This document shows, piece by piece, positions 16,901-29,072 of a stretch of DNA of 58,068 nucleotides. The translations under genes and the position numbers were made by a program. The notes beneath the pieces are model-generated. The model had not been told where the DNA came from. It saw only the letters and a program-made list of their open reading frames with translations, and searched no databases. The stretch lies in NCBI GenBank assembly GCA_016933965.1, contig JAFGTS010000031.1:1-58068 (forward strand), read 5' to 3'. The first letter of the stretch is position 1. Each line of letters opens with the position of its first letter. Source of the stretch: Deltaproteobacteria bacterium (GTDB lineage Bacteria > Desulfobacterota > Syntrophia > Syntrophales > UBA2210).

Positions 16901-16931
16901 AAGTCCGTTATGCGGCGGACTTCTCCGCCGC
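16901..16931. other. Overlapping alternative hairpins
   Basis: Two mutually exclusive stems share bases here: AAGTCCG (16901-16907) with CGGACTT (16916-16922), and GCGGCGGA (16912-16919) with TCCGCCGC (16924-16931, 4-base loop). No U-tract follows. They lie between the dehydrogenase remnant and the acyl-CoA synthetase start and may act as a weak terminator or mRNA-processing signal. Confidence 0.35.
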
Positions 16932-16990
16932 GCGTTCGGCCTGCCAGTTTCAGATCCCTATTGCGGTGGCGCTTGATAAAGGAGGTACTG

Positions 16991-18829
16991 ATGGAACACT
17001 TTGATGAGATAACCATGGCAGCGGTTTTTCAGAACAGAGCGCTCGAAAACGGTGAAAAGGCCTGCGTGGCCTACCGGAATGGCGCCGGTGAATGGTTCGA
17101 TGTTTCCTGGAACCGAATGAATGATATGATCCACGAATTTGCGTATCATCTGCTCGACAGGGGCATCCGGCACGGTGACAAGGTGGCCGTCTTCTCACCG
17201 AACCGGTTTGAGTGGTGGGTCGCCGATATGGCCATTCTATCCATCGGGGCCGTCAATATCCCGATCTACGCGACCAACACCCCCGAAGAGGTTCGGTACA
17301 TACTGGACGATTCGGATGCCCGGATATGCTGTGCCGGCACGGAAGATCACTTGCGTCGCGTCTTGTCCGTCAGAAAAGCACTGCCGAAACTGGAGGAAGT
17401 GGTCGTGTTTGACGAGATCGGCGGAACATATGAAGGCGTGCTCACCATGGGGGAAGCCTTTGAGCAGGGAAGGGCCTGCCGGGACGAAGATGAATTCGAC
17501 CGGCGGCTCAAAGCGATTCGCCCCGACGACCTGTGCACGTTCATTTACACCTCCGGTACCACGGGAGACCCGAAAGGGGTCATGCTCTCACATCATAACA
17601 TCATGTCCAATGTGCATCAGTTCAAGGCCCGGTTTCCCGAAATAGTGACGCAGCAGCACCGGCTGCCCTCGTTTCTGCCCCTTTCTCATGCCGTGGAACG
17701 GACGGCGGTTTATTACTGTCAGGTGTACAGCGCCAACAAGGTCTGCTTTGTAAAGGACATCACCACGCTTCTGGAAGACCTGCAGGCGATCCGTCCCACT
17801 TTCATGGCCTCCGTCCCCCGGGTGCTGGAGAAGATGTATGACGGCATTCATGAAAAGGTCGCCCAGGCGCCGCCCCTGAAGAAGAAGCTCTTTGAGTGGG
17901 CGAAAAGCGTGGGTGCGAGAAACCTTCCCTATATCTGCAATGGGAAGAAACGCGGCGGTCTTTTCGCCCTTGAGTACAACCTGGCCGACCGGCTGATATT
18001 TTCCAAGCTGAAAAAGGCCCTCGGCCTGGACCGGATCTATTTTATCGGCCTTGGCGGGGCTCCCATGCTTCCCCATGTTCTTGAATTTTTCCTGGGCATC
18101 GGTATCAGCTGCTGCGACGCATATGGGCTCAGTGAAACGTCACCCGTCGTGACCTGCAATTACGTGGGACACATCAGACCGGGAACGGTCGGCATGCCTG
18201 TTCCCGATACGGAGATAAGAATAGGTGATGACGGAGAATTGCTCATTAAGGGTCCCCAGGTCATGGTGGGTTACTACAAGAATGAAGCAGCCACGCGGGA
18301 GGCAATGACGAGTGACGGATACCTGAGAAGCGGCGACATTGGTGAACTGGATGCCGAGGGAAATCTCCGTATCACGGGAAGGATAAAGGACATACTCATC
18401 ACGTCCGGCGGCAAGAACATTTCCCCTCAGAATCTTGAAAATGCCATGCTGACGTCCGAGTTCATCGAACAGGTGGCCGTCATCGGTGACAGCCGAAAGT
18501 ACCTGTCAGCACTGGTGGTACCTGTCTTTGAAATACTTGAACCCTGGGCGCGAAAGAACAACATCGGTTTCACGAACCGGGAAGAGTTGATAGGCAGGGA
18601 AGAGGTGAAGGACCTTTTCGACAGAGAGATCAAAGAAAAGATGGGACCCTTCGGACGGGTTGAGCAGATAAAGAAATTTACCTTGATGCCCTTTGTCTGG
18701 ACCCAGGAGACGGGTGAGCTGACACCGACGTTGAAGGTGAAACGCCGCGTCCTAGCAGAAAAGTACGCGAAAGAGATCAATGCGATGTACATGGCTGAAC
18801 AGGGAAGTAAGAAAAGGCTTGACACATGA
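16991..18829 (+). CDS. AMP-forming acyl-CoA synthetase, long-chain (FAA1/FadD15) type
   Basis: This 612-residue ANL ligase is of the larger long-chain group. Motifs: FIYTSGTTGDPKGVMLSHHN (P-loop), AYGLSETSPVVTCN, SGDIGELDAEGNLRITGRIK, and ITSGGKNISPQNLENAM, where GKNISP is typical of long-chain/bubblegum-type synthetases. GGAGG at 16981-16985 sets the ATG at 16991; an upstream in-frame start at 16910 lies in the hairpins and is rejected. It is the first gene of the plus-strand cluster and would activate the substrate that the downstream dehydrogenases, hydratase and aldolase-like protein process. Confidence 0.92.
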   Translation: MEHFDEITMAAVFQNRALENGEKACVAYRNGAGEWFDVSWNRMNDMIHEFAYHLLDRGIRHGDKVAVFSPNRFEWWVADMAILSIGAVNIPIYATNTPEEVRYILDDSDARICCAGTEDHLRRVLSVRKALPKLEEVVVFDEIGGTYEGVLTMGEAFEQGRACRDEDEFDRRLKAIRPDDLCTFIYTSGTTGDPKGVMLSHHNIMSNVHQFKARFPEIVTQQHRLPSFLPLSHAVERTAVYYCQVYSANKVCFVKDITTLLEDLQAIRPTFMASVPRVLEKMYDGIHEKVAQAPPLKKKLFEWAKSVGARNLPYICNGKKRGGLFALEYNLADRLIFSKLKKALGLDRIYFIGLGGAPMLPHVLEFFLGIGISCCDAYGLSETSPVVTCNYVGHIRPGTVGMPVPDTEIRIGDDGELLIKGPQVMVGYYKNEAATREAMTSDGYLRSGDIGELDAEGNLRITGRIKDILITSGGKNISPQNLENAMLTSEFIEQVAVIGDSRKYLSALVVPVFEILEPWARKNNIGFTNREELIGREEVKDLFDREIKEKMGPFGRVEQIKKFTLMPFVWTQETGELTPTLKVKRRVLAEKYAKEINAMYMAEQGSKKRLDT

Positions 18830-18908: not shown

Positions 18909-19673
18909 ATGGATGTTTCATATCTTTCAATGGCAGGAAAGAAGACGCTGATAACGGGGGCGAGCAGGGGGATTGGAAAAGCCATCGCGCTCCGGTTCGC
19001 CGATGCCGGCGCGGATGTTGCCGTGGCAAGCCGGAAACAGGAAGCTCTGGACGCTGTGGCCGATGAGATCCGGGCAATGGGAAGAACGGCGCTTGTCGTC
19101 ACCTATCATAATCGTGAAGCGGACAGCATCAATGCCCTTATTGACAGAGTGAAAAAGGAGTTCGGCGGGATCGACGTGCTGGTGAACAACGCGGCTACCA
19201 ATCCCGGAATGGGGCAGTTGATAGACATGGATGAGGGGATGTACGATCAGATCATGCTCACGAACCTCAAGGGCTACACTCTTCTGAGCCAGGCAGCGGG
19301 AAAGGTGATGAAGGAGCAGGAGTCGGGTGTTATCGTCAACATATCCTCTCTGGGCGGCCTTACCCCGGACTGGGGGCTGGGATTGTACTGCATCAGCAAG
19401 GCCGGCATCAATATGCTCACACGTGCCATGGCGAAGGAAATGGGCCGCTATGGTGTAAGGGTCAATGCCATAGCACCCGGTGTCGTGCAGACCCGCTTTT
19501 CCCAGGCACTCTGGACGGATGATTCCCTGATGAAGAACGTCCTGGAACGGACGCCCCTGGGCAGGATCGCCCAGCCCGAAGAGATCGCCCGGATCGCCCT
19601 GTTCCTCGCGTCGGACGCATCATCCTTCATGACGGGCCAGGTCCTGGTAGCCGACGGAGGGACATCCCTTTAA
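18909..19673 (+). CDS. SDR-family NAD(P)-dependent oxidoreductase
   Basis: This 254-residue classical short-chain dehydrogenase has the cofactor motif TGASRGIG (16-23), NNAA, and a catalytic Ser-Tyr-Lys set with YCISK. The C-terminus GQVLVADGGTSL matches FabG-like enzymes. In this cluster a 3-hydroxyacyl-CoA or alcohol dehydrogenase role is most likely; cofactor and substrate are not determined. It has its own candidate promoter and a short GGGGAG before the ATG. Confidence 0.88.
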   Translation: MDVSYLSMAGKKTLITGASRGIGKAIALRFADAGADVAVASRKQEALDAVADEIRAMGRTALVVTYHNREADSINALIDRVKKEFGGIDVLVNNAATNPGMGQLIDMDEGMYDQIMLTNLKGYTLLSQAAGKVMKEQESGVIVNISSLGGLTPDWGLGLYCISKAGINMLTRAMAKEMGRYGVRVNAIAPGVVQTRFSQALWTDDSLMKNVLERTPLGRIAQPEEIARIALFLASDASSFMTGQVLVADGGTSL

Positions 19674-19775
19674 CGATGCAGCGTCCGGTGGATGGATACA
19701 TTTTACAAATGACCGCCGGGTGAAATGGATCGAACAAAAATACCATGCTTTGAAAGGGGAAGGAGAATCGACAGT

Positions 19776-21398
19776 ATGGCGAAAAAGTATGACGTGATCG
19801 TAATAGGTTCAGGTATCGCCGGTATGGGGGCCGCAGCTCTTTTAGCGAAGAATTTTGGGAAAAAGGTACTGGTAGCCGAAAAGGCCCCCTTTATCGGTGG
19901 CCGCAGCCTCTCCATGGTAGGCAAGGGTGACCGGATGACCGTTGACGGCCTGGAACTCGATGTGAACGGTTTCAGGCAGATGTGGGAGTATAATGGTACC
20001 TGGCCCTTTGCCGCGAAGGGGTTTCCTGCCATTGAGGAATGCTTTCAGAAGGGGCTGTTCGACGGCTATACCATGGACAGCGGCCATGGGTTGTTCTGGG
20101 GCAACAGGAGCCGCGTGCGCTGCCTGCTGGATTACCTGGATGTTCCCGTCGACCTTCCCACCAACACAGGGTTTGCATACATCGATTACCGGGGGGGTAA
20201 CCGCTTCTACCAGGTCGGCAAGGGTGAGGCCTACGGATGGATGTCGCCACAGGAATATGGGGAAACGATCGAACAGCTCAGGGCGATGGCGATGACCGAT
20301 TATGCATCACTGAAATCCCTGATGAAGATTTCTCTCCAGGATTGGCTCGAGCAGCGGAAGATCAATCCGAAAACCTACGCCTATATCAAGAACCTCGCGG
20401 CCTCACAAACCGTCCAGAACGATCTTTCCATGACACCGGCCGGCGATTTTCTCGGATATCAGGCGATGGCGCGGGATATCAAAATGAATCTCGTGGACGG
20501 TTCCGTCGGTACCATTTCCAACCCCGGTGTCACGGCCATACCGCTGGCCATGGAAGAGTGTCTGAACTCGTTCGGCGGGAAAGTGCTGAGAAACACGCCG
20601 GTGGAGCAGGTCATTGTTGAGAAAGGGACCGCTCGGGGTGTTATCCTTCGCACCAGGAAAGGATTTGAAACGATCTATGCCGACCGGATCATCTGTAATC
20701 TCATGCCCAAGGCTATCTTCAGCATTATTCACCCCCGTCATTTCGACCACGAGTTCGTGAGCGCCGTCAGAACAAAGTTCTTCACGCCCAGTCTCCTCAC
20801 GGGGATGATCGGACTGAAGCGGAACGTGCTGGAAGAGAAAGGCATCGATGAACGGAGTTTCATCTACATGCCCGATGTCGTCGGTCCCGAAGAGGGGTTC
20901 AGGGGCGGTGCCGTGGACGTGGTCATGTGGAACATGTCTTCCAGTGCCGGCAAGAGCGTGGCTCGGCCGAGCATCTGCAGGGATCATGGAAGGGCTCCCG
21001 ATGGTGAACGGGATTACTGTTTCTCGCTCCCACTGCTCGATTACGAGATGAACAATCCGGACAAGGTCAAGAGATTGACGGAGTTCTGCGAAAACTGGTT
21101 CAAACGGACGTTCCGTTCCTGGAAGGAGGATGTGAAATTCTTCATCTGGACGGCCTGCGACAGGGCGTACGGGAATTGGCGGCCCGTCGGAATGGAGCGC
21201 CCTGATGTCACGTCGCCTCATATCGGCAATCTCTTCTTCACGGGTGATCAATACGGTAAGCGGATGTGGGGAGGCGGTGTCGACGGGGCCGGTCTGTGCG
21301 CGGTCATGACGGTGGACGCCATGATGGGAACCAGGCTCGAAGAACAGATATTCCCCGTCTACCATCGCGGTGTTCCTGAAGACAAGGTGTGGGAGTAG
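19776..21398 (+). CDS. CrtI/phytoene-desaturase-like FAD-dependent oxidoreductase
   Basis: This 540-residue flavoprotein has an N-terminal dinucleotide-binding motif (VIVIGSGIAGMGAAALLAKN, GSGIAG at 11-16) followed by KKVLVAEKAPFIGGRS. Its C-terminal FAD segment NLFFTGDQYGKRMWGGGVDG is that of amine-oxidase/phytoene-desaturase-type enzymes. AAGGAG nine bases upstream supports ATG 19776 over an earlier in-frame start at 19725. No carotenoid genes are present. Its place among CoA-thioester enzymes suggests oxidation or isomerisation of an alicyclic or polyprenoid-like substrate; this is inference. A long ORF on its opposite strand is a coding shadow. Confidence 0.85.
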   Translation: MAKKYDVIVIGSGIAGMGAAALLAKNFGKKVLVAEKAPFIGGRSLSMVGKGDRMTVDGLELDVNGFRQMWEYNGTWPFAAKGFPAIEECFQKGLFDGYTMDSGHGLFWGNRSRVRCLLDYLDVPVDLPTNTGFAYIDYRGGNRFYQVGKGEAYGWMSPQEYGETIEQLRAMAMTDYASLKSLMKISLQDWLEQRKINPKTYAYIKNLAASQTVQNDLSMTPAGDFLGYQAMARDIKMNLVDGSVGTISNPGVTAIPLAMEECLNSFGGKVLRNTPVEQVIVEKGTARGVILRTRKGFETIYADRIICNLMPKAIFSIIHPRHFDHEFVSAVRTKFFTPSLLTGMIGLKRNVLEEKGIDERSFIYMPDVVGPEEGFRGGAVDVVMWNMSSSAGKSVARPSICRDHGRAPDGERDYCFSLPLLDYEMNNPDKVKRLTEFCENWFKRTFRSWKEDVKFFIWTACDRAYGNWRPVGMERPDVTSPHIGNLFFTGDQYGKRMWGGGVDGAGLCAVMTVDAMMGTRLEEQIFPVYHRGVPEDKVWE

Positions 21399-21479: not shown

Positions 21480-22943
21480 ATGGGTTTGATGACACCCGAT
21501 GAATTCAAGGCGAGTCTGAATGACGGAAGAATTGTATACTACAAGGGCCGGAAAATCGATAATGTGGCCGAGGACCCCGATCTGCTGGCCTGTGTGGAGA
21601 CCGCCGCCGTCGATTATGAAATGGCGGAGGATCCTCGGTACCGTGATCTGGCCGTTGTCAGGGACGAGGAACTCGGCGAGGATATCAGCCGGTTCTACTA
21701 CACCCCGAAAAACGGAGAGGACCTGCTCAAACAGCTTGAGCTGACCATCAAGGCCACCGAACTGGGGGATGGATACATTCCCTTTACCCATGATATCGGC
21801 GCCGACGCGATGAACGCCATATCCATCACCGCCCGCAGCATGGGCGATGCCGGCGCGGCGTATCTTGAGAGGATCGAAAACTACCGCAGGTACCTCAAAA
21901 GAACGGACCTGAGCGTGGTCGCCGCCGTCACCGATGTCAAGGGGGACCGGCACCTGCGTCCTTCCGATCAACGGCAGGTCCATCCCGATTTTCACCTCCG
22001 TATCGTGGAACGGCGGGACGACGGGATCGTCGTTCGCGGGGCAAAAGCGCATATCACTGCGGCGGCCTATTGCAACGAGTTCTTCGCGATTCCCTGCCGT
22101 GCCCTGGGGGGTGCGGAAGACGCCGATTATGCCGTTGCGTTTGCCCTTCCCATCAACACACAGGGTATCCGGCAGATCGTTCGTCCCTTCAGCTCGCGGA
22201 TCAGCGATCTCGAGTTTCCCGTTGAACGTCCGCTGCGCAGAATGCACACGGATTCACTGATCATCTTCGATGATGTCTTTGTACCCTGGGACCGGGTTTT
22301 CCTTTGCGGCGAGTGGCAGTATGCCGCCACCATGGTCTACAATTTCGCCCTGCTTCACCGGAGGACGGGCTGTGCCTACCGCATCCCCATGAGCGAGCAT
22401 CTGCTGGGCATCGCGCAGGCCATTGCGGAATATAACGGAATTGCGGGAGCGCCCCATGTGAGAGAAAAGATCACCGAGATCGTCATCTACCTGCAGACGC
22501 TCTCGGCCCTTTCCCGCTCGGCCTGCCTGGATTATGTGGACCATGCCGGGATACCCGTTCCCAACCCGGTGACGACCAATATCGCGAAATACCACTTCGC
22601 CCATAATTATCACAAGGTGGTCGAGATCATACAGGACCTCGCGGGCGGGCTGCTGGTAACGGCGCCCACCTACAAGGACTGGAAGAACCCCGAAACACAT
22701 GATGATATTGAAAAGTACCTGCAGGGAATACCGGAGCTCCCAACGGAAGACCGCCTGCGCATGTTCGACCTGATCCGCCGCCTTACATCGGGTGATCTGG
22801 AGACCATCTGTCTCCACGGTGAAGGGTCGCCGTATGCCGAGCGGATGACGATTTTCATGGAGGCCCGGAAATTGATCGCCCGGTGCAAGAAACTTGTTGA
22901 CGAAATGGCCGGTATACCGGCCGGTGAACGAAGAAAAGACTGA
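21480..22943 (+). CDS. HpaB / 4-hydroxybutyryl-CoA dehydratase family flavoprotein lacking Fe-S cysteines
   Basis: This 487-residue protein has the fold of the 4-hydroxyphenylacetate 3-hydroxylase (HpaB) family, including 4-hydroxybutyryl-CoA dehydratase/vinylacetyl-CoA isomerase. Recognisable segments are VHPDFHLRIVERRDDGIVVR, DDVFVPWDRVFLCGEW and FALLHRRTGCAYRI. In Clostridium 4-hydroxybutyryl-CoA dehydratase the [4Fe-4S] cluster uses Cys99, Cys103, His292 and Cys299. Here His293 and Cys298 are present but two residues closer, and there is no Cys at all between residues 38 and 198. The canonical cluster therefore cannot form. It may be an FAD-only dehydratase, isomerase or hydroxylase. It follows the CrtI-like gene by 81 bases. 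Confidence 0.88.
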   Translation: MGLMTPDEFKASLNDGRIVYYKGRKIDNVAEDPDLLACVETAAVDYEMAEDPRYRDLAVVRDEELGEDISRFYYTPKNGEDLLKQLELTIKATELGDGYIPFTHDIGADAMNAISITARSMGDAGAAYLERIENYRRYLKRTDLSVVAAVTDVKGDRHLRPSDQRQVHPDFHLRIVERRDDGIVVRGAKAHITAAAYCNEFFAIPCRALGGAEDADYAVAFALPINTQGIRQIVRPFSSRISDLEFPVERPLRRMHTDSLIIFDDVFVPWDRVFLCGEWQYAATMVYNFALLHRRTGCAYRIPMSEHLLGIAQAIAEYNGIAGAPHVREKITEIVIYLQTLSALSRSACLDYVDHAGIPVPNPVTTNIAKYHFAHNYHKVVEIIQDLAGGLLVTAPTYKDWKNPETHDDIEKYLQGIPELPTEDRLRMFDLIRRLTSGDLETICLHGEGSPYAERMTIFMEARKLIARCKKLVDEMAGIPAGERRKD

Positions 22944-22966: not shown

Positions 22967-24151
22967 ATGAGTGATCTCAAGGGCAAGGTTGCCATCATCG
23001 GCATCGGGGAGGTCCCGACGGGGCGATTTCCCGAAGCCTCGGCGATTTACCATGCGATCGAATCGGCACGCCGGGCCATCAGGGATGCCGGCATCAACAA
23101 GGATAATATCGATTACGTTCTTCCCTGCGGCGCCGTTTACAGCCCGCCTTTCAACACGGAACTGATCACCGGCCGCGTCGTCGAGGAACTGGGACTGAAA
23201 AACGTCAGCAAGAACTGCCAGGTCTTTTCGGGCGGTTCCACAAGCAGTTGCGGCATTGATATCGCGGCATCTCTTATCAATTCAAAGGCGGCCTCGACGG
23301 TTCTCTTCGTTCACGCCGACCGCCTCGGTACCGGTGTGGACCTTCAGGGCGGCATCGACCTTTTTGCCACGGCGGGCATTTCACATGAATGGGAGGTCCC
23401 ATTCGGGCAGCATTATTCATCTATCGCCGCTCTCGCCATGACCCGTTACATGTATGAGACGGGATGCACCGATGAACACCTCGCGGCGGTATGCGTTTCC
23501 AACCGGAAATGGGCGGAGCTGAACCCGCACGCGTTTTTCAGAAAACCGGTGACCATCGAGGAAATCCTGTCCTCCAAGGTACTGTCCACACCCCTGCGTG
23601 CGAAACAGTCGAACATGCTCTTCGACGGCGGGGCGGCCTTCATCGTGACCTCGGCCGAGCGCGCGCGGGACATTACGGAGAGACCCGTCTATCTGCTGGG
23701 CGAAGGCGGCATCGTGACGCACTTTGTCTATTCCCAGGAGCCCGATATCACCCGGTTCGGCTGGGCGAGAGCGGCCGAAAAGGCCTTTGGGGAAGCGGGA
23801 CTGACAGCGGCAGACATGGATATCGCCGAGATCTACGATTCCTATCCCATCTACGAACTGATCGCCTTTGAGGAACTCGGATTCTGCAAAAGAGGTGATG
23901 GAGGCGAGATGTTCCTGAGAGGAGATACCTGGCCCGGCGGAAAGATCCCGACGACGACCAATGGCGGTATGCTTTCCCAGGGACATACCGGTGGTGGCGG
24001 TGGTGTGGCCATCCTCGTTGAAACCTTCCGGCAGCTGATGGGAAAGGCCGGTGAGCGGCAGGTTCCGAATGCCCGGTTCGCCGTTGAAACCGGAACGGGC
24101 GGCACCTACATGGATTCGCAGGTGTCCGTCTTCGGAACGGAGATCCCGTAA
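22967..24151 (+). CDS. Thiolase-fold protein of Ltp2/SCP-x type, probable acyl-CoA retro-aldolase or thiolase
   Basis: This 394-residue thiolase-superfamily protein resembles Ltp2, the aldolase of steroid side-chain cleavage. Matching blocks include SNRKWAELNPHAFFRKPVTI, the ERARDITERPVYLLGEGG region and EIYDSYPIYELIAFEELGFC. By hand alignment the nucleophilic Cys position falls on Gly90 (FSGGSTSSC); nearest cysteines are Cys84 and Cys95. It retains a thiolase-like GGMLSQGHTGG, where Ltp2 has a Tyr. It may be an aldolase or an unusual thiolase. The next genes encode the DUF35 partner and MaoC hydratase with which Ltp2-type enzymes work. Confidence 0.85.
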   Translation: MSDLKGKVAIIGIGEVPTGRFPEASAIYHAIESARRAIRDAGINKDNIDYVLPCGAVYSPPFNTELITGRVVEELGLKNVSKNCQVFSGGSTSSCGIDIAASLINSKAASTVLFVHADRLGTGVDLQGGIDLFATAGISHEWEVPFGQHYSSIAALAMTRYMYETGCTDEHLAAVCVSNRKWAELNPHAFFRKPVTIEEILSSKVLSTPLRAKQSNMLFDGGAAFIVTSAERARDITERPVYLLGEGGIVTHFVYSQEPDITRFGWARAAEKAFGEAGLTAADMDIAEIYDSYPIYELIAFEELGFCKRGDGGEMFLRGDTWPGGKIPTTTNGGMLSQGHTGGGGGVAILVETFRQLMGKAGERQVPNARFAVETGTGGTYMDSQVSVFGTEIP

Positions 24152-24202
24152 CTTGGAGATGCCACAAAGGACTGTCGTGAATCTTTGAAAGGAGCTTTTC
24201 AC

Positions 24203-24628
24203 ATGAATATGCCAGTCAAACCAAAACCGGTACCTGTCGCAACGGCGTGGACCATGCCGTTCTGGGAAGGAACCCGGAATGGGAAATTGCTGTATCAGAA
24301 ATGCGGGGACTGCGGGACCAATGTCTTCATTCCGCGGATCGCCTGTTCACGATGTTTTTCTGAAAATCTCGAATGGGTGGAATCATCGGGCAGGGGAACG
24401 GTATTCAGCTTTACCGTGGTGGAGAACAACGCGCCCTCGGCGTTTATCGCCGACATGCCCTTCGTGATCGCCATCGTAAAGATGGAGGAGGAAGGGGTCC
24501 AGATGCTGACCAATATCGTGGAATGTGATCCCTATGAGGTGCGTTGCGACATGCCCGTCGAGGTGGTCTTCGAGAAACTGAGCGATGAGTTCACGCTTCC
24601 GAAGTTCAGACCTGCCGCATCAAGGTAG
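24203..24628 (+). CDS. DUF35 zinc-ribbon/OB-fold protein, thiolase-fold partner
   Basis: This 141-residue protein has a rubredoxin-like zinc ribbon C34-x2-C37-x10-C48-x2-C51 and then an OB fold (RGTVFSFTVVENN...). DUF35 proteins form tight complexes with the thiolase-fold protein encoded next to them, for example BbsA with BbsB, or the DUF35 part of ChsH2 with Ltp2. GGAG upstream supports ATG 24203 rather than a TTG at 24185. The function is to complete the active site or acyl-CoA entry of the neighbouring thiolase-fold enzyme. Confidence 0.9.
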   Translation: MNMPVKPKPVPVATAWTMPFWEGTRNGKLLYQKCGDCGTNVFIPRIACSRCFSENLEWVESSGRGTVFSFTVVENNAPSAFIADMPFVIAIVKMEEEGVQMLTNIVECDPYEVRCDMPVEVVFEKLSDEFTLPKFRPAASR

Positions 24629-24667
24629 GAGAAGCAGCATATAACATTTGCTCCAGGGAGGATGCTC

Positions 24668-25120
24668 ATGGCTGAAAAATACTGGGAAGATTTTGATGTG
24701 GGGTTTTCTTTCAAAACCCCGTCCATAACGGTTACGGAGTCCCATATCGTTACCTGGGCGGGTCTGACCATGGACTTCTACCCACTTCACGTGGATGCCG
24801 AGTACGCGAAAAAAACCGTTTTCAAGGAGCGGATCGCGCATGGGCCTCTCATCTTCGGGTTGGCCGTCGGCCTGGCGGCACAGGCCAGGATCGAGGGAGG
24901 GGCCGTCATGGCCTGGATGGGTGTCGACAACATGCGTATGCTCGCTCCCGTGAGGATCGGCGATACCGTAACGGTGAACATTGAGGTGACACAGAGAAAA
25001 GAGACGAAAAAGGACACTCAGGGCATACAGATCTGGAAATACAGCGTTCATAATCAGCGTGATGAGGTTGTTCTTGTGTTCGACATGAATTTCCTGATGC
25101 ATCGGAGACCCGCCGTGTAA
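24668..25120 (+). CDS. MaoC-family enoyl-CoA hydratase
   Basis: This single-hotdog protein of about 150 residues has the hydratase-2 motif in modified form: MDFYPLHVD, keeping catalytic Asp36 and His41 but with Tyr in place of the usual Asn. IAHGPLIFGLAVGL follows. It would add water to an enoyl-CoA, giving the (R)- or tertiary hydroxy product. GGGAGG sets the ATG at 24668; an ATG at 24662 is too close. In steroid pathways such hydratases supply the aldolase substrate, which fits the neighbours. Confidence 0.88.
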   Translation: MAEKYWEDFDVGFSFKTPSITVTESHIVTWAGLTMDFYPLHVDAEYAKKTVFKERIAHGPLIFGLAVGLAAQARIEGGAVMAWMGVDNMRMLAPVRIGDTVTVNIEVTQRKETKKDTQGIQIWKYSVHNQRDEVVLVFDMNFLMHRRPAV

Positions 25121-25185
25121 TAAACTGCCGCCGGTTTCATGCCGGGAGCAGGGGCCGGTGCAGGCAGGGGAAGGAGTTTGATGCC

Positions 25186-26331
25186 GTGGACATGCGCTTC
25201 AGCGAGGAACAGGAGAAACTCAGAAAAAAGGTACGTGACTTTGTGGAACGCGAAATGCCGCGTGACCTGGTACGAGAGCTTGACGAAAAGGACGAGTATC
25301 CCCATGAATTGCTCGGCAAGCTCGTCGATCTTGATCTTGCCCGGGTCAACATTCCGGAAGAGTACGGCGGCACCGGCGGCGACATTATCGACCTGATGAT
25401 CATATTTGAGGAACTGGGAAGGCGGTTTCCGACACTGACCTGGGCCTTCGGTAATATAGTCCTCTATGGAAATGAGATCATAGGAGTGAACGGCAGTGCG
25501 GCCCAGAAACGGGAATACCTGCCGCGGCTCGGCAGGGGGGAGATAAAATTCTGCTTTGCACTGACCGAACCGAATGCAGGCTCTGACGCGGCGAGCATCA
25601 GTACCCGCGGGATTCCCGATGGAGACGGATATGTCGTAACGGGTAACAAGATGTTCATATCAGGAGCGGGGGTTTCGGATTACGCCGTCACCTTTGCCCG
25701 CACGGATCAGCCGAAGTATGCCGGGATAACGGCCTTTATCGTGGACACCGGGCTGGAAGGATACCAAGCCAGGTCTCTTGAGAAGATCGGTATGCATGGC
25801 TCGAATACCTGTGAGGTGACCTACGATAATGTACGTGTCAGATCGGTAGATATCCTGGGCGGGCCCGAATACCTCAACAAAGGATGGTTCCAGGAGATGA
25901 AACTTCTCAACCAGGAACGGCTGAATCTGTCGGCCGTCGCGCTCGGGATTGCCGAGGCCGCCCTCGAGGATGCTCTGGAATATGCCCGTGATATGATTCC
26001 GGGAACTAACAGGAAAAACATCCAGCAGAGCATGCAGCACCAGCTCGCCGATATGGCCACGAACGTCGAAGCCATCCGCTGGCTCATTTATGCCGCTGCG
26101 TGGAAGGAAACGCAGCACATGCAGCCTGTTATGGAAACGTCCATGTCGAAATACTTTTCGGCGGAGACCACGAAAAAGATCGTTCTCCAGGGACTTGATA
26201 TCCTGGGGCGGGAGGCGTCTCTGATGAGACGTGACATGCAGCGATACCTGAGAGATATCATGATCTACTCCATCGGCGGCGGTACATCCCAGATACAGAA
26301 GAACATCATTGCCAAGACCCTGAACGTTTGA
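25186..26331 (+). CDS. Acyl-CoA dehydrogenase, subunit 1 of a likely pair
   Basis: This 381-residue flavoprotein has the acyl-CoA dehydrogenase layout. It begins (GTG) VDMRFSEEQEKLRKK; the GTG at 25186 is 9 bases from AGGAG. The substrate/FAD motif ALTEPNAGSDAA (125-136) is intact. The usual C-terminal catalytic Glu is replaced by Gly365 (IGGGTSQIQ). A Glu244 in NQERLNL aligns with the isovaleryl-CoA/long-chain dehydrogenase base, so activity is still possible. The second dehydrogenase starts 75 bases downstream. Together they may form a heteromer like ChsE1-ChsE2. Confidence 0.92.
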   Translation: MDMRFSEEQEKLRKKVRDFVEREMPRDLVRELDEKDEYPHELLGKLVDLDLARVNIPEEYGGTGGDIIDLMIIFEELGRRFPTLTWAFGNIVLYGNEIIGVNGSAAQKREYLPRLGRGEIKFCFALTEPNAGSDAASISTRGIPDGDGYVVTGNKMFISGAGVSDYAVTFARTDQPKYAGITAFIVDTGLEGYQARSLEKIGMHGSNTCEVTYDNVRVRSVDILGGPEYLNKGWFQEMKLLNQERLNLSAVALGIAEAALEDALEYARDMIPGTNRKNIQQSMQHQLADMATNVEAIRWLIYAAAWKETQHMQPVMETSMSKYFSAETTKKIVLQGLDILGREASLMRRDMQRYLRDIMIYSIGGGTSQIQKNIIAKTLNV

Positions 26332-26406
26332 CCGGGACGGTGCGCTGGTTCATGAACTGCCGGCAGGCCTTCATGATCGGGAGAGGATCTTTCAAAGGAG
26401 CCGATA

Positions 26407-27561
26407 ATGGATTTTTCGTTAAGTGATGAACAGCGGTTTATCAGAGATACGATAGAGAAATTTCTGGCCCGTGAGTGCGGCCGCGAGGTCGTCAAGAAAC
26501 TTGACGAGGAGCGGAGGTTTCCGACGGACCTCTACCGGACCGTCGCGGGGATGGGGTTTTGCGGGCTTACCATTCCGGAAGAGTATGGCGGCGGAGGGCC
26601 GAACGTTCTGGGAGCGGCACTGGTGACCGAAGAGCTGGCGACGGTTTCTCCCGTGCTGGCAGGTGCCTTTTCTGCGGCGGCGTTTCGTGGAGGACTCACG
26701 CTGTCGACGCTGGGCAGCGATGCGCAAAAGAAAGCGCTTCTTCCGAAGCTCGCCGAAGGTGCCCATCTCTTTTCCTTCGCCGTTGAGGAACCGGGATTGA
26801 CCGGGGGGGCGGGGCCTTTCCGGACGCAAGCGGAACGGCGTGATGAAGTGTTCGTTGTCAGTGGCGTCAAGTCGTGCGCCGGCCTTGCGGACCATGCCGA
26901 TTACCTGATCGTACCCGTATCGACGGAGGCCATCGATGGGGACGAGAACAGCGTGACAATCTTTCTCGTTCAGACCGGTTCCGGCAATATCCGGATAACG
27001 CCCGCGGAAACCGTTGGATTCGTGAGCGGGTCGTTCTGCGATGTCGTTTTTGATGATCTCGTCCTCACCAGGGAAGACATACTGGGCGGGGGTGAGCATA
27101 TCGGCCGGGGGCGGGTTCAAATGGAAGGGATCGCCGCGTGCGCTAACCTCGAAATCGCCGCCATAGCCCGCGGGATAATGAAAGGCTGCTATGAATACGC
27201 CCTGAATTATGCTAAGGAACGGGAGCAGTTCGGTCAGGCTATCATGCGGTTCGGTGGCGTTCAGGACATGCTGGTGGAAATGGCCGTTTCCGTCCGGGTG
27301 GCCGGTGACCTTCTTTATCGTGCCTGCTGGTGTGCCGACAGGGGGGACCCCTATCTGGAAGAATCGACCATGGCCCGGCTCCGGGCATGCCGGGATGTCC
27401 GGCAGGCCGCCATGGACTGTATGCAGGTTCTGGGAGGGTACGGGTATGCAAACGAGTACGATGCCCAGCGGTATCTTCGTGACTCCCTGGTGATGCTGGA
27501 GGGTACCCCTGGTACAGGCGTGCTGAAGGATACCCTGGCCGACTGCCTGTGGGCATATTGA
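26407..27561 (+). CDS. Acyl-CoA dehydrogenase, subunit 2 of a likely pair
   Basis: This 384-residue dehydrogenase begins MDFSLSDEQRFIRDTIEKF and has the YAKEREQFGQAI and GGYGYANEYDAQRYLRD family blocks. It keeps the C-terminal catalytic Glu365 (MLEGT), but the usual T-E-P-x-x-G-S-D motif is degraded to VEEPGLTGGAG (126-136), and the C-terminal IQ segment is altered (GTPGTGVLKD). This is the complement of what subunit 1 lacks, as expected for obligate heteromers. The ATG follows AAAGGAG. A TetR regulator follows by about 110 bases. Confidence 0.92.
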   Translation: MDFSLSDEQRFIRDTIEKFLARECGREVVKKLDEERRFPTDLYRTVAGMGFCGLTIPEEYGGGGPNVLGAALVTEELATVSPVLAGAFSAAAFRGGLTLSTLGSDAQKKALLPKLAEGAHLFSFAVEEPGLTGGAGPFRTQAERRDEVFVVSGVKSCAGLADHADYLIVPVSTEAIDGDENSVTIFLVQTGSGNIRITPAETVGFVSGSFCDVVFDDLVLTREDILGGGEHIGRGRVQMEGIAACANLEIAAIARGIMKGCYEYALNYAKEREQFGQAIMRFGGVQDMLVEMAVSVRVAGDLLYRACWCADRGDPYLEESTMARLRACRDVRQAAMDCMQVLGGYGYANEYDAQRYLRDSLVMLEGTPGTGVLKDTLADCLWAY

Positions 27562-27607: not shown

Positions 27608-27673
27608 GTGGAATGGACGACGGGGGTCTTCCGGTGGAACGATCAGAATGGGAAGCGAACGAGGACGGGGTGA
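27608..27673 (+). CDS. Possible 21-codon leader ORF coupled to the TetR gene
   Basis: A GTG at 27608 lies 8 bases after GAGGAGGG (27592-27599) and opens a 21-codon frame. Its TGA (27671-27673) overlaps the ATG of the TetR gene at 27673 (TGATG). The peptide is short, basic at its C-terminus and unlike known proteins. The strong ribosome-binding site is better placed for this GTG than for the in-frame TetR ATG at 27613 (13 bases). Translational coupling is inferred. Confidence 0.4.
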   Translation: MEWTTGVFRWNDQNGKRTRTG

Positions 27674-28311
27674 TGGAAAAGAAGAAACAGAAGCAACCGA
27701 CCGATTTTCCCATGCTCAAGGAACAGGAAAGGGAAAACCGGAGAAATCTGATCATAGACGCGGCGGAGCGGGTGTTTTCCGCAAAGCCCTTTGAGCAGGT
27801 GACCATGCGCAATATCGCCATGGAAGTCGGCATTACTCCGACGGCCATCTATCGGTATTTCGCGGATAAGCAGGCGCTCTATGCCGAATCATATGTCAGA
27901 AGCAATAACCGGTTGCTCGAGAAGCTTGTCAAGGTGTTCGAACATTCCAGCGATCTCAATCTTGAAAAGATCGCCACCATTACCGTCGATCATTTTCTGG
28001 GAGAGGAACAGAACCTCAAAATGCGGGCTCATTTCATGATCGACGACATGCTGAACGATAACCTTCTGGGCAAGCTATCTGAGAACACAAAGTACTTCGT
28101 CGATACCATAGAGCAGCATTTCCGGAAGTTTAGCTCCGACCCGGAAGTAAGAATTCTGGCGCTGACCTTTTTCGCGGCACTGAACGGCGTCCTTTTGACC
28201 TATCGCAAGAGCCCGGGGAAAAGCCGTGCGGAGATCGTGAAGAACATCAGGAAAGAAGCCCAGATCGTGTCGGAAATATTTACCAAACGGCTGATGTCGG
28301 GAGGGTCGTGA
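27673..28311 (+). CDS. TetR/AcrR-family transcriptional regulator
   Basis: This 212-residue regulator has an N-terminal helix-turn-helix: NLIIDAAERVFSAKPFEQVT, then MRNIAMEVGITPTAIYRYF. A variable all-helical ligand domain follows. I chose the ATG at 27673, which overlaps the leader ORF stop; ATG 27613 would add 20 residues. TetR proteins in such clusters usually repress them and respond to CoA esters. The GTTA-type repeats at 16160-16170 and 18834-18870 are candidate operators, but this link is inferred. Confidence 0.9.
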   Translation: MEKKKQKQPTDFPMLKEQERENRRNLIIDAAERVFSAKPFEQVTMRNIAMEVGITPTAIYRYFADKQALYAESYVRSNNRLLEKLVKVFEHSSDLNLEKIATITVDHFLGEEQNLKMRAHFMIDDMLNDNLLGKLSENTKYFVDTIEQHFRKFSSDPEVRILALTFFAALNGVLLTYRKSPGKSRAEIVKNIRKEAQIVSEIFTKRLMSGGS

Positions 28312-28334: not shown

Positions 28335-29072
28335 ATGAGTGATGAGCTTGACGGGAAAACGGTGCTGGTCACCGGTGCGGCAGGAGGGATCGGTAGTGCC
28401 GTCGCAGAAGGGCTTTGCGAGGCGGGAGCGCGGGTGTTCGCAGTCGACCTTCATACCCGAAAAGTGGGCGTCCCATCGCTGCGCGAGGAGTGCTGGAAAG
28501 AATATCAGGCCGATGTGAGTGATGCCGGGTCGGTTCAGGCAATGATCGAGGCCTGTGAGAAGCGTTTCGGACCGCCTGAAGTGCTCGTCAACGTGGCCGC
28601 CATCAGCAGGCCCTGTCAGGTTCAGGACATGCGCCTTGACCTGTGGCGACAGGTCATTACGATGAATCTTACCTCTGTTTTTCTCTGTTCCCGCGCGGTA
28701 CTGCCCGCCATGACCGAGGCGGGAGGGGGAAGCATCATCAATTTTTCCTCCGTGCTGGCCGATATCGGAGGAAAGGGAAGCGCTCATTACGCGGCCGCAA
28801 AGGCCGGTGTCGAAGCGTTTTCAAAATCACTTGCCCGTGAGGTAAGTGCTCTGGGAATCCGGGTTAATGTGATTTCTCCCGGCATGGTCGATACCCCGAT
28901 GCTTGCTCTGATGAGCGAGCAACAGAAAAAAGCGCTCGCCGGAAGAATCCCCCTGGGACGTATCGGAAGACCGGAAGACTTTGTGAAGCCCGTAATTCTT
29001 CTTGCCTCGGACGGCGCATCCTATATGACCGGTCAGGTGATCCGTGTGGATGGCGGCATGAACATGGCCTGA
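28335..29072 (+). CDS. SDR-family NAD(P)-dependent oxidoreductase
   Basis: This 245-residue short-chain dehydrogenase has TGAAGGIG (13-20), a Ser-Tyr-Lys set with YAAAK, and the C-terminal MTGQVIRVDGGMNMA. The NNAG motif reads NVAA. It lies 23 bases after the TetR stop and is the second SDR of the cluster; a hydroxyacyl-CoA or alcohol dehydrogenase role is likely. Which step it serves cannot be told from sequence. Confidence 0.88.
   Translation: MSDELDGKTVLVTGAAGGIGSAVAEGLCEAGARVFAVDLHTRKVGVPSLREECWKEYQADVSDAGSVQAMIEACEKRFGPPEVLVNVAAISRPCQVQDMRLDLWRQVITMNLTSVFLCSRAVLPAMTEAGGGSIINFSSVLADIGGKGSAHYAAAKAGVEAFSKSLAREVSALGIRVNVISPGMVDTPMLALMSEQQKKALAGRIPLGRIGRPEDFVKPVILLASDGASYMTGQVIRVDGGMNMA

Follow-up and report, generated by a model that had tools for sequence, protein, structure and literature searches.

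A candidate module for retro-aldol cleavage of acyl-CoAs branched or cyclic at the beta-carbon in a Syntrophales genome

Little is understood of how anaerobes break down acids whose beta-carbon is branched or lies in a ring (alicyclic naphthenic-type and methyl-branched isoprenoid acids), since beta-oxidation comes to a halt at a tertiary alcohol. Could a gene cluster from a bacterium of the order Syntrophales (Desulfobacterota) encode a way past this point? The cluster lies in a stretch of 58,068 nucleotides (GenBank assembly GCA_016933965.1, contig JAFGTS010000031.1, positions 1 to 58,068; hereafter the window), a single contig from a genome of 2.85 Mb. At its centre are five genes encoding a thiolase-fold protein (Thl), a DUF35 protein, a MaoC-type enoyl-coenzyme A (CoA) hydratase and two acyl-CoA dehydrogenases (ACAD1 and ACAD2). 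This order had been described in an earlier note on the same DNA, and all five open reading frames were recovered on the plus strand, with the coordinates and families assigned there. Comparison of the sequences, and analogy with the thiolase-fold aldolases Ltp2 and Sal, make it rather probable that this operon is a retro-aldol cleavage module for acyl-CoAs that carry a branch or a ring at the beta-carbon.

Thl was aligned with solved structures. Gly89 occupies the column that in thiolases (BbsB, 7yvy) holds the nucleophilic Cys, and Tyr290, within an IYDSY motif, that of the HDAF/HEAF His; Ser292 falls at the column of Sal Cys304 and His340 at that of Sal Gln352 (residue numbering of Sal and Ltp2 as in PMC12329534). 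The Gly, the YDSY motif and the GH His are common to all 22 complete members of at least 64% identity, the window included, and a wider set (n=21) shows no variation at Gly89, Tyr290 or His340. As far as sequence can tell, Thl has the broad features of an Ltp2/Sal-type protein: no nucleophilic Cys, a Tyr where the HxAF His would stand, and a DUF35 partner.

In a maximum-likelihood tree of 62 rows, a Tyr-type group (TcLtp2, CtSal, 4u4e and the window Thl) was split from the Cys thiolases, including BbsB and 7yvy, by a 100/99 branch. Within that group the window Thl fell into a 31-row clade (100/100), apart from both Ltp2 and Sal; CtSal, TcLtp2 and BbsB sit on long branches, which makes the branching within the Tyr group uncertain. 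The earlier note had named a grouping with Cys thiolases, combined with thiolytic and no aldolytic activity, as the outcome that would refute its reading; on the phylogenetic half of this, the tree gave a grouping with Ltp2 and Sal. Its label "Ltp2-like" holds for membership in the Tyr-type aldolase group, but Thl forms a third clade with other active-site residues and is neither Ltp2 nor Sal. Three narrower assignments were tried and rejected: Ltp2, because Thl lies in its own subclade and has YDSY and His340 in place of YDHF and Tyr344; Sal, because the window protein and its orthologues carry Ser292 where Cys304 of YDCY is essential; and a Cys thiolase of the BbsAB type, because all orthologues have the Gly and the Tyr and lie on the opposite side of the branch. 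The curated models for BbsB and BbsA scored 144.5/750 and 33.2/250 bits, both below cut-off.

The two dehydrogenases, both complete-length matches to the acyl-CoA dehydrogenase family, were found to divide the family motifs between them. ACAD1 retains TEPNAGSD (127), the Glu of QERL (243-246; the isovaleryl/long-chain type position) and GGGTSQIQ (364), with ERxQFG and GGYGY destroyed; ACAD2 retains EREQFG (271) and GGYGY (343; GGYGYxxEYDAQ), with TEPxAGSD and GGGTxQIQ destroyed. The same complementary split was present in ten of the ten other loci that carry both genes (L021, L029, L037, L038, L042, L044, L045, L046, L047 and L048), ACAD2 not always adjoining ACAD1 and lying farther downstream on the same contig in L042 and L045. 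Where ACAD2 is missing (L030, L033, L034, L035 and L043), the ACAD1 homologue keeps all or nearly all motifs, and the best ACAD2 match in those genomes falls on this complete homologue itself. The Glu position of ACAD2 varies, being Ala in the window and Glu in L021, L029, L044 and L045.

In the described alpha2beta2 enzymes, the alpha subunit holds the isoalloxazine, the Glu and the substrate, and the beta subunit contacts the adenosine diphosphate (ADP)-ribose of flavin adenine dinucleotide (FAD) (PMC11153573). The split, which the earlier note had not described, suggests that ACAD1 and ACAD2 are complementary half-enzymes in the layout of these steroid dehydrogenases. As in ChsE4-ChsE5, ChsE1-ChsE2 and IpdE1-IpdE2, the halves of the FAD site are complementary, and one subunit has the isoalloxazine side together with the Glu and the substrate; unlike those pairs, the window pair stands outside a steroid setting, and its heteromer is a predicted one. 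The IpdE2 model gave 74.2/450 bits with ACAD2, and the tree was built without ChsE sequences.

The nearest solved relatives of the DUF35 protein are the Sal partner (9myr_B) and then the DUF35 domain of ChsH2 (6ok1_B), and all four Cys residues of its zinc ribbon (40, 43, 54 and 57) are conserved. Asp38 and His43 of MaoC, a pair known from hydratase 2 enzymes, are conserved in 29 homologues. A hydratase of the ChsH1-ChsH2 type, with two MaoC proteins, one of them fused to DUF35, was rejected, as the window has one MaoC and a separate DUF35 gene; the parts list drawn up by analogy with that pair was right as to the presence of MaoC and DUF35, and not as to their number and fusion. The single MaoC is no obstacle, because the proteobacterial steroid hydratase Shy works without an inert partner domain (PMC11321319).

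Together, these proteins could form a short route. With a branch or a ring at the beta-carbon, ordinary beta-oxidation would halt at a tertiary alcohol. ACAD1 and ACAD2, acting as one heteromeric dehydrogenase, would introduce an alpha,beta-double bond, MaoC would add water to give a tertiary 3-hydroxyacyl-CoA, and Thl with DUF35 would cleave the C-C bond, Tyr290 accepting the proton of the tertiary alcohol and His340 or Ser292, as the acid, giving a proton back to the CoA enolate. The assignment of Tyr290 as the base draws on the work on Ltp2 and Sal, whose chemistry involves a Tyr base (PMC12329534). The products would be acetyl-CoA or propionyl-CoA and a ketone, and the neighbouring short-chain dehydrogenase (SDR), CrtI-like and HpaB-like flavoproteins, the last lacking the ligands of an iron-sulfur (Fe-S) cluster, may process the ketone or prepare the substrate. 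In steroid side-chain degradation the steps follow the same order of dehydrogenase, hydratase and aldolase (PMC12502768).

The Thl-DUF35-MaoC set recurs in about 20 loci of five phyla (Desulfobacterota, Bacillota, Chloroflexota, Actinomycetota and Pseudomonadota), so that it is not a chance neighbourhood. The Thl proteins are 64-79% identical; a scan of named genomes found such relatives in Desulfomonilaceae, Desulfatibacillum, the HGW-Deltaproteobacteria-19 metagenome-assembled genome (MAG), Desulfovirgula and Syntrophomonadaceae, and further hosts were Chloroflexota, Actinomycetota, Zoogloeaceae, Burkholderiales and a Hyphomonadaceae MAG. Since every relative genome is metagenome-assembled, an odd host that stands alone may reflect a binning error. 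Among the 18 other genomes searched from the window's own family, no Thl copy exceeded 49% identity, whereas two genomes from another family of the same order had copies at 78-79%; this distribution suggests that the module has spread by horizontal transfer. No relatives of the module were found among viral contigs.

Several observations weigh against the retro-aldol assignment. Replacement of Cys304 by Ser abolished the activity of CtSal (PMC12329534); with Ser292 at this position in Thl, the catalytic acid must therefore differ. The acid of Ltp2, Tyr344, is absent from Thl too, and the Asp of the YD motif is missing in some members of the wider clade. We know of no member of the Thl clade with a known activity. 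The predicted structure (predicted local distance difference test, pLDDT, 90.9) matched the true thiolase 6esq (Z 53.5) as well as Sal (51.8) and the SCP2-thiolase-like protein of trypanosomes, TbSLP (51.6), and the fold alone thus cannot discriminate between thiolase and aldolase. The half-site motif losses map to one event on the ACAD1 tree, and the heteromer is consequently supported by complementarity and not by repeated correlation. The accessory set also varies: no CrtI-like gene was seen in the stretch read of L021/L022/L029, where SDR1 and HpaB occur, and no HpaB-like gene in L030-L036, L039 and L041. On balance, the core retro-aldol idea of the earlier note stands, with the tree placement and the dehydrogenase split in its favour; its parts list needs amending for the separate Thl clade, the single MaoC and the unfused DUF35.

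One other explanation is that Thl and DUF35 resemble BbsAB/PhlBC in function and act together as a thiolase or C-acyltransferase, with ordinary thiolysis or Claisen chemistry as the reaction. The fold and the DUF35 partnering are shared with the benzoylsuccinyl-CoA thiolase BbsAB, itself an enzyme of anaerobic degradation; the Thl model aligns equally to 6esq, 7pyt and 5m3k, and the GHP-type thiolase His is retained as His340. Unlike Thl, BbsAB has a nucleophilic Cys and an HDAF His, which in all Thl orthologues are Gly and Tyr, and BbsB, 7yvy and the other Cys thiolases lie across the branch noted above; together with the low scores of the BbsB and BbsA models, this makes a thiolase quite improbable. 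We give even less credence to a different activity of Thl, such as weak malonyl-CoA decarboxylation, or to a non-catalytic scaffold. TbSLP, one of the top fold matches, shares the Tyr, lacks the Cys and reportedly decarboxylates malonyl-CoA very slowly (PMC12329534), whereas in the present family Gly89, Tyr290 and His340 are strictly conserved over five phyla and the linkage to a hydratase and a dehydrogenase is fixed.

The module might also act on the side chain of a polycyclic substrate, so that an anaerobe would use it on steroids, hopanoids or bile acids. It contains a full set of functional analogues, including the heteromeric dehydrogenase otherwise described for steroids (PMC11153573), and several related loci carry genes of FabK-like flavoproteins, the class to which IpdC belongs (PMC5380842). 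A steroid substrate becomes less likely because the genome has no orthologue of the ketosteroid Delta1-dehydrogenase KstD (best score 48.9 bits, cut-off 788) and because Thl belongs to neither the Ltp2 nor the Sal clade; the part of the window that was annotated showed no further steroid-ring genes. The absence of steroid-ring genes had been claimed before, and the one marker checked, KstD, agrees with it. We consider a polycyclic substrate unlikely. Operation in the synthetic direction, in which acetyl- or propionyl-CoA would undergo aldol addition to a ketone, followed by dehydration and reduction to a branched acid, is similarly hard to favour. Aldolases and hydratases are reversible, and L042 and L045 contain genes for a 3-hydroxy-3-methylglutaryl-CoA (HMG-CoA)-synthase-like/DUF35 protein and a thiolase; against this, acyl-CoA dehydrogenases, ligases and FadB/FadJ-type proteins cluster with the module elsewhere, the usual signature of degradation. 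Retro-aldol cleavage in the degradative direction is the reading retained below.

Among known systems, the igr operon for the steroid C3 side chain (Ltp2-ChsH2, ChsE1-ChsE2, ChsH1-ChsH2) offers the same reaction logic and parts, namely a heteromeric dehydrogenase, MaoC, and a thiolase-fold protein with DUF35 in which the YD Tyr is kept and the thiolase Cys lost. The window module differs from it in its separate Thl clade, in YDSY and His340 (YDHF and Tyr344 in igr), in a single MaoC separate from DUF35, in its linkage to CrtI-like and HpaB-like genes, and in its mostly anaerobe lineages and a host genome without a KstD orthologue. With Sal-Shy, which acts on the bile-acid C5 side chain in Comamonas testosteroni (9myr), it shares the Gly, the Tyr base, the DUF35 partner and a single hydratase; unlike Sal-Shy, it has Ser292 for Cys304 (YDCY), His340 for Gln352 and a separate clade, and its DUF35 zinc ribbon is Cys4 where Cys3His1 is described for Shy. 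The top sequence match in the PDB (215 bits) is 4u4e of Sphaerobacter thermophilus, a structural-genomics "thiolase" of unknown function, which shares the Gly/Tyr/Ser/His set (GGS, IYDSF, THPG) and is 36% identical over 354 residues, but belongs to a different subclade. A limonene ring cleavage operon (LrcB/LrcC) of a methanogenic enrichment has a proposed anaerobic retro-aldol step at a tertiary alcohol; there the cleavage is credited to a protein of the HMG-CoA-synthase superfamily instead of a Thl-DUF35 pair, and it is likewise unproven (PMC12583861).

The features of the locus are listed in Table 1. They form a same-strand run with intergenic gaps of 23-81 bp from the ligase (16910) to SDR2 (29072). 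The ligase directly upstream, which would belong to the same operon, is probably the activating enzyme. Between 16329 and 16898 lies a 189-residue C-terminal remnant (PF12806) of a ~620-residue acyl-CoA dehydrogenase, which related clusters carry in full; it matches the L045 protein over residues 437-620 at 39% identity and lacks the first two thirds of the enzyme, a sign of gene decay or rearrangement. The module appears to be chromosomal, as the contig also encodes SMC and an SRP54-type GTPase and the G+C of the module (0.566) is near that of the contig (0.55). The description of the host as an apparent anaerobe is supported by the lack of a haem-copper oxidase in the genome and a weak CdhC match, but is left unproved by one cytochrome bd oxidase.

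Table 1. Genes of the same-strand run in the window and the matches on which their assignments rest
Feature	Position	Strand	Match
Adenosine monophosphate (AMP)-forming acyl-CoA ligase (FadD11-like)	16910..18829	+	PF00501; NF038343 407.8 bits, below cut-off of 950
SDR1, short-chain dehydrogenase	18909..19673	+	PF13561/PF00106
CrtI-like FAD oxidoreductase, divergent (phytoene-desaturase superfamily; FAD desaturase-like)	19725..21398	+	Rossmann/Amino_oxidase matches only
HpaB-like flavoprotein	21480..22943	+	PF11794/PF03241
Thl, thiolase-fold retro-aldolase candidate	22967..24151	+	PF22691 (Thiolase_C_1)
DUF35 partner, zinc ribbon and OB fold	24185..24628	+	PF12172 and PF01796 (zf-ChsH2, OB_ChsH2_C)
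MaoC-type (hydratase 2) enoyl-CoA hydratase, 152 aa	24662..25120	+	PF01575
ACAD1, putative alpha-like half of a heteromeric acyl-CoA dehydrogenase	25186..26331	+	family match, motifs
ACAD2, putative beta-like half of a heteromeric acyl-CoA dehydrogenase	26407..27561	+	family match, motifs, tree
TetR-family regulator, 3' of the operon	27613..28311	+	PF00440
SDR2	28335..29072	+ (same-strand run)	

The linkage to CrtI-like and HpaB-like genes, also pointed out earlier, was confirmed: both are adjacent to the module and the linkage is repeated in other genomes. SDR1, CrtI-like and HpaB-like genes stand beside Thl-DUF35-MaoC in L042 and L044-L047, and also in L038, there with a more divergent CrtI; L037 has no close SDR1. 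SDR1 copies are 69% identical in the L021/L022 block and 60-67% in L038, L042 and L044-L047, and CrtI-like homologues of 35-61% occur in L036-L039 and L041-L047. Loci such as L030 and L033 carry instead a different member of the CrtI superfamily (24% identical to that of the window) together with a Cys thiolase. Several related loci add a FabK/NMO-like flavoprotein, a FadB/FadJ-type protein, the ~620-residue acyl-CoA dehydrogenase and acyl-CoA ligases, and some an HMG-CoA-synthase-like/DUF35 fusion with a Cys thiolase. In L042 (5544-8202) and L045 (6181-8991) this fusion adjoins the Cys thiolase within the module cluster, and it recalls the retro-aldolase of the HMG-CoA-synthase family that has been proposed to act in limonene degradation by anaerobes.

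The HpaB-like protein scored 240 bits with 4-hydroxybutyryl-CoA dehydratase (1u8v) and 168 bits with HpaB (2yyg), and the best fold matches of its predicted model were 6vjr and 1u8v (Z 41.9 and 41.7). The dehydratase AbfD, its closest solved relative in sequence and fold, keeps the Fe-S ligands; in the HpaB-like protein C99 is replaced by P, C103 by D and C299 by Y, H292 being the one of the four ligands that is kept, and all module-linked homologues of at least 60% identity carry these three replacements. With C99, C103 and C299 missing, a function as 4-hydroxybutyryl-CoA dehydratase was rejected. The curated model for the two-component monooxygenase HpaB gave 194.7 bits, below its cut-off of 480.2, and O2-dependent hydroxylation by this protein looks unlikely in these hosts. 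A true CCHC copy of the family is encoded elsewhere in the window genome (C43). Two more Fe-S-less proteins are found in the same genome, one (60% identity; C35, L150:4464-5933) without a Thl module, beside two SDRs, an epimerase, an old-yellow-enzyme-type reductase and a TetR regulator, the other (43%; C55, L151:3824-10145) beside a CoA ligase with an SCP2 sterol-carrier domain, a 3-beta-hydroxysteroid-dehydrogenase-like epimerase and an aldehyde ferredoxin oxidoreductase. No close solved relative was found for the CrtI-like protein, and SDR1 may act on a ring or side-chain alcohol or ketone. The CrtI-like genes had hinted at a limonene dehydrogenase, but a limonene/perillyl-CoA pathway was rejected, the mrc and lrc gene sets being without this block in the parts of the sources covered; limonene/perillyl-type compounds may still be the substrate class.

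The window genome encodes 20 Thiolase_C_1 proteins. Two paralogous Thl-DUF35 modules (48% and 37% identity) lie on C32 and C13 (L023 and L024), and near each of them are genes for an acyl-CoA dehydrogenase and an acyl-CoA ligase. Another Thl paralogue (C16, L152:8245-9816; IYDCF, SESY) groups in the tree with TcLtp2, L012, L006 and L011 (100/98); it adjoins genes for a DUF35 protein and an enoyl-CoA hydratase and represents a second, Ltp2-clade aldolase candidate in this genome.

The literature searched, with most subscription journals outside its scope, held no description of this module and no match for an anaerobic retro-aldol DUF35 module, for a retro-aldol route of naphthenic acids in anaerobes or for a cyclohexylacetate route. 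Aerobic Arthrobacter is said to split cyclohexylacetate through a tertiary alcohol lyase, which serves as a lead only. It is conceivable, though we hold this broader proposal tentatively, that the module represents an undescribed O2-independent pathway, horizontally spread through at least five phyla, that would take acetyl or propionyl units off tertiary or ring beta-carbons and combine a third thiolase-fold aldolase family (Gly/Tyr/Ser/His), a non-steroid heteromeric acyl-CoA dehydrogenase and an Fe-S-less dehydratase relative with new flavin chemistry on the released ketone.

Taken together, these results describe a real and widely conserved module, a variant of the Ltp2/Sal-type retro-aldol system whose hosts are mostly anaerobic. 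If the proposed function is true, the conserved set of dehydrogenase, hydratase and aldolase would offer a testable answer to the question of how acids with a branched or ring beta-carbon are degraded without oxygen, as well as a genetic marker for this capacity. Thiolase-fold aldolases and heteromeric acyl-CoA dehydrogenases would then reach beyond steroid catabolism, and aldolase function on one fold would use at least three different active-site sets.

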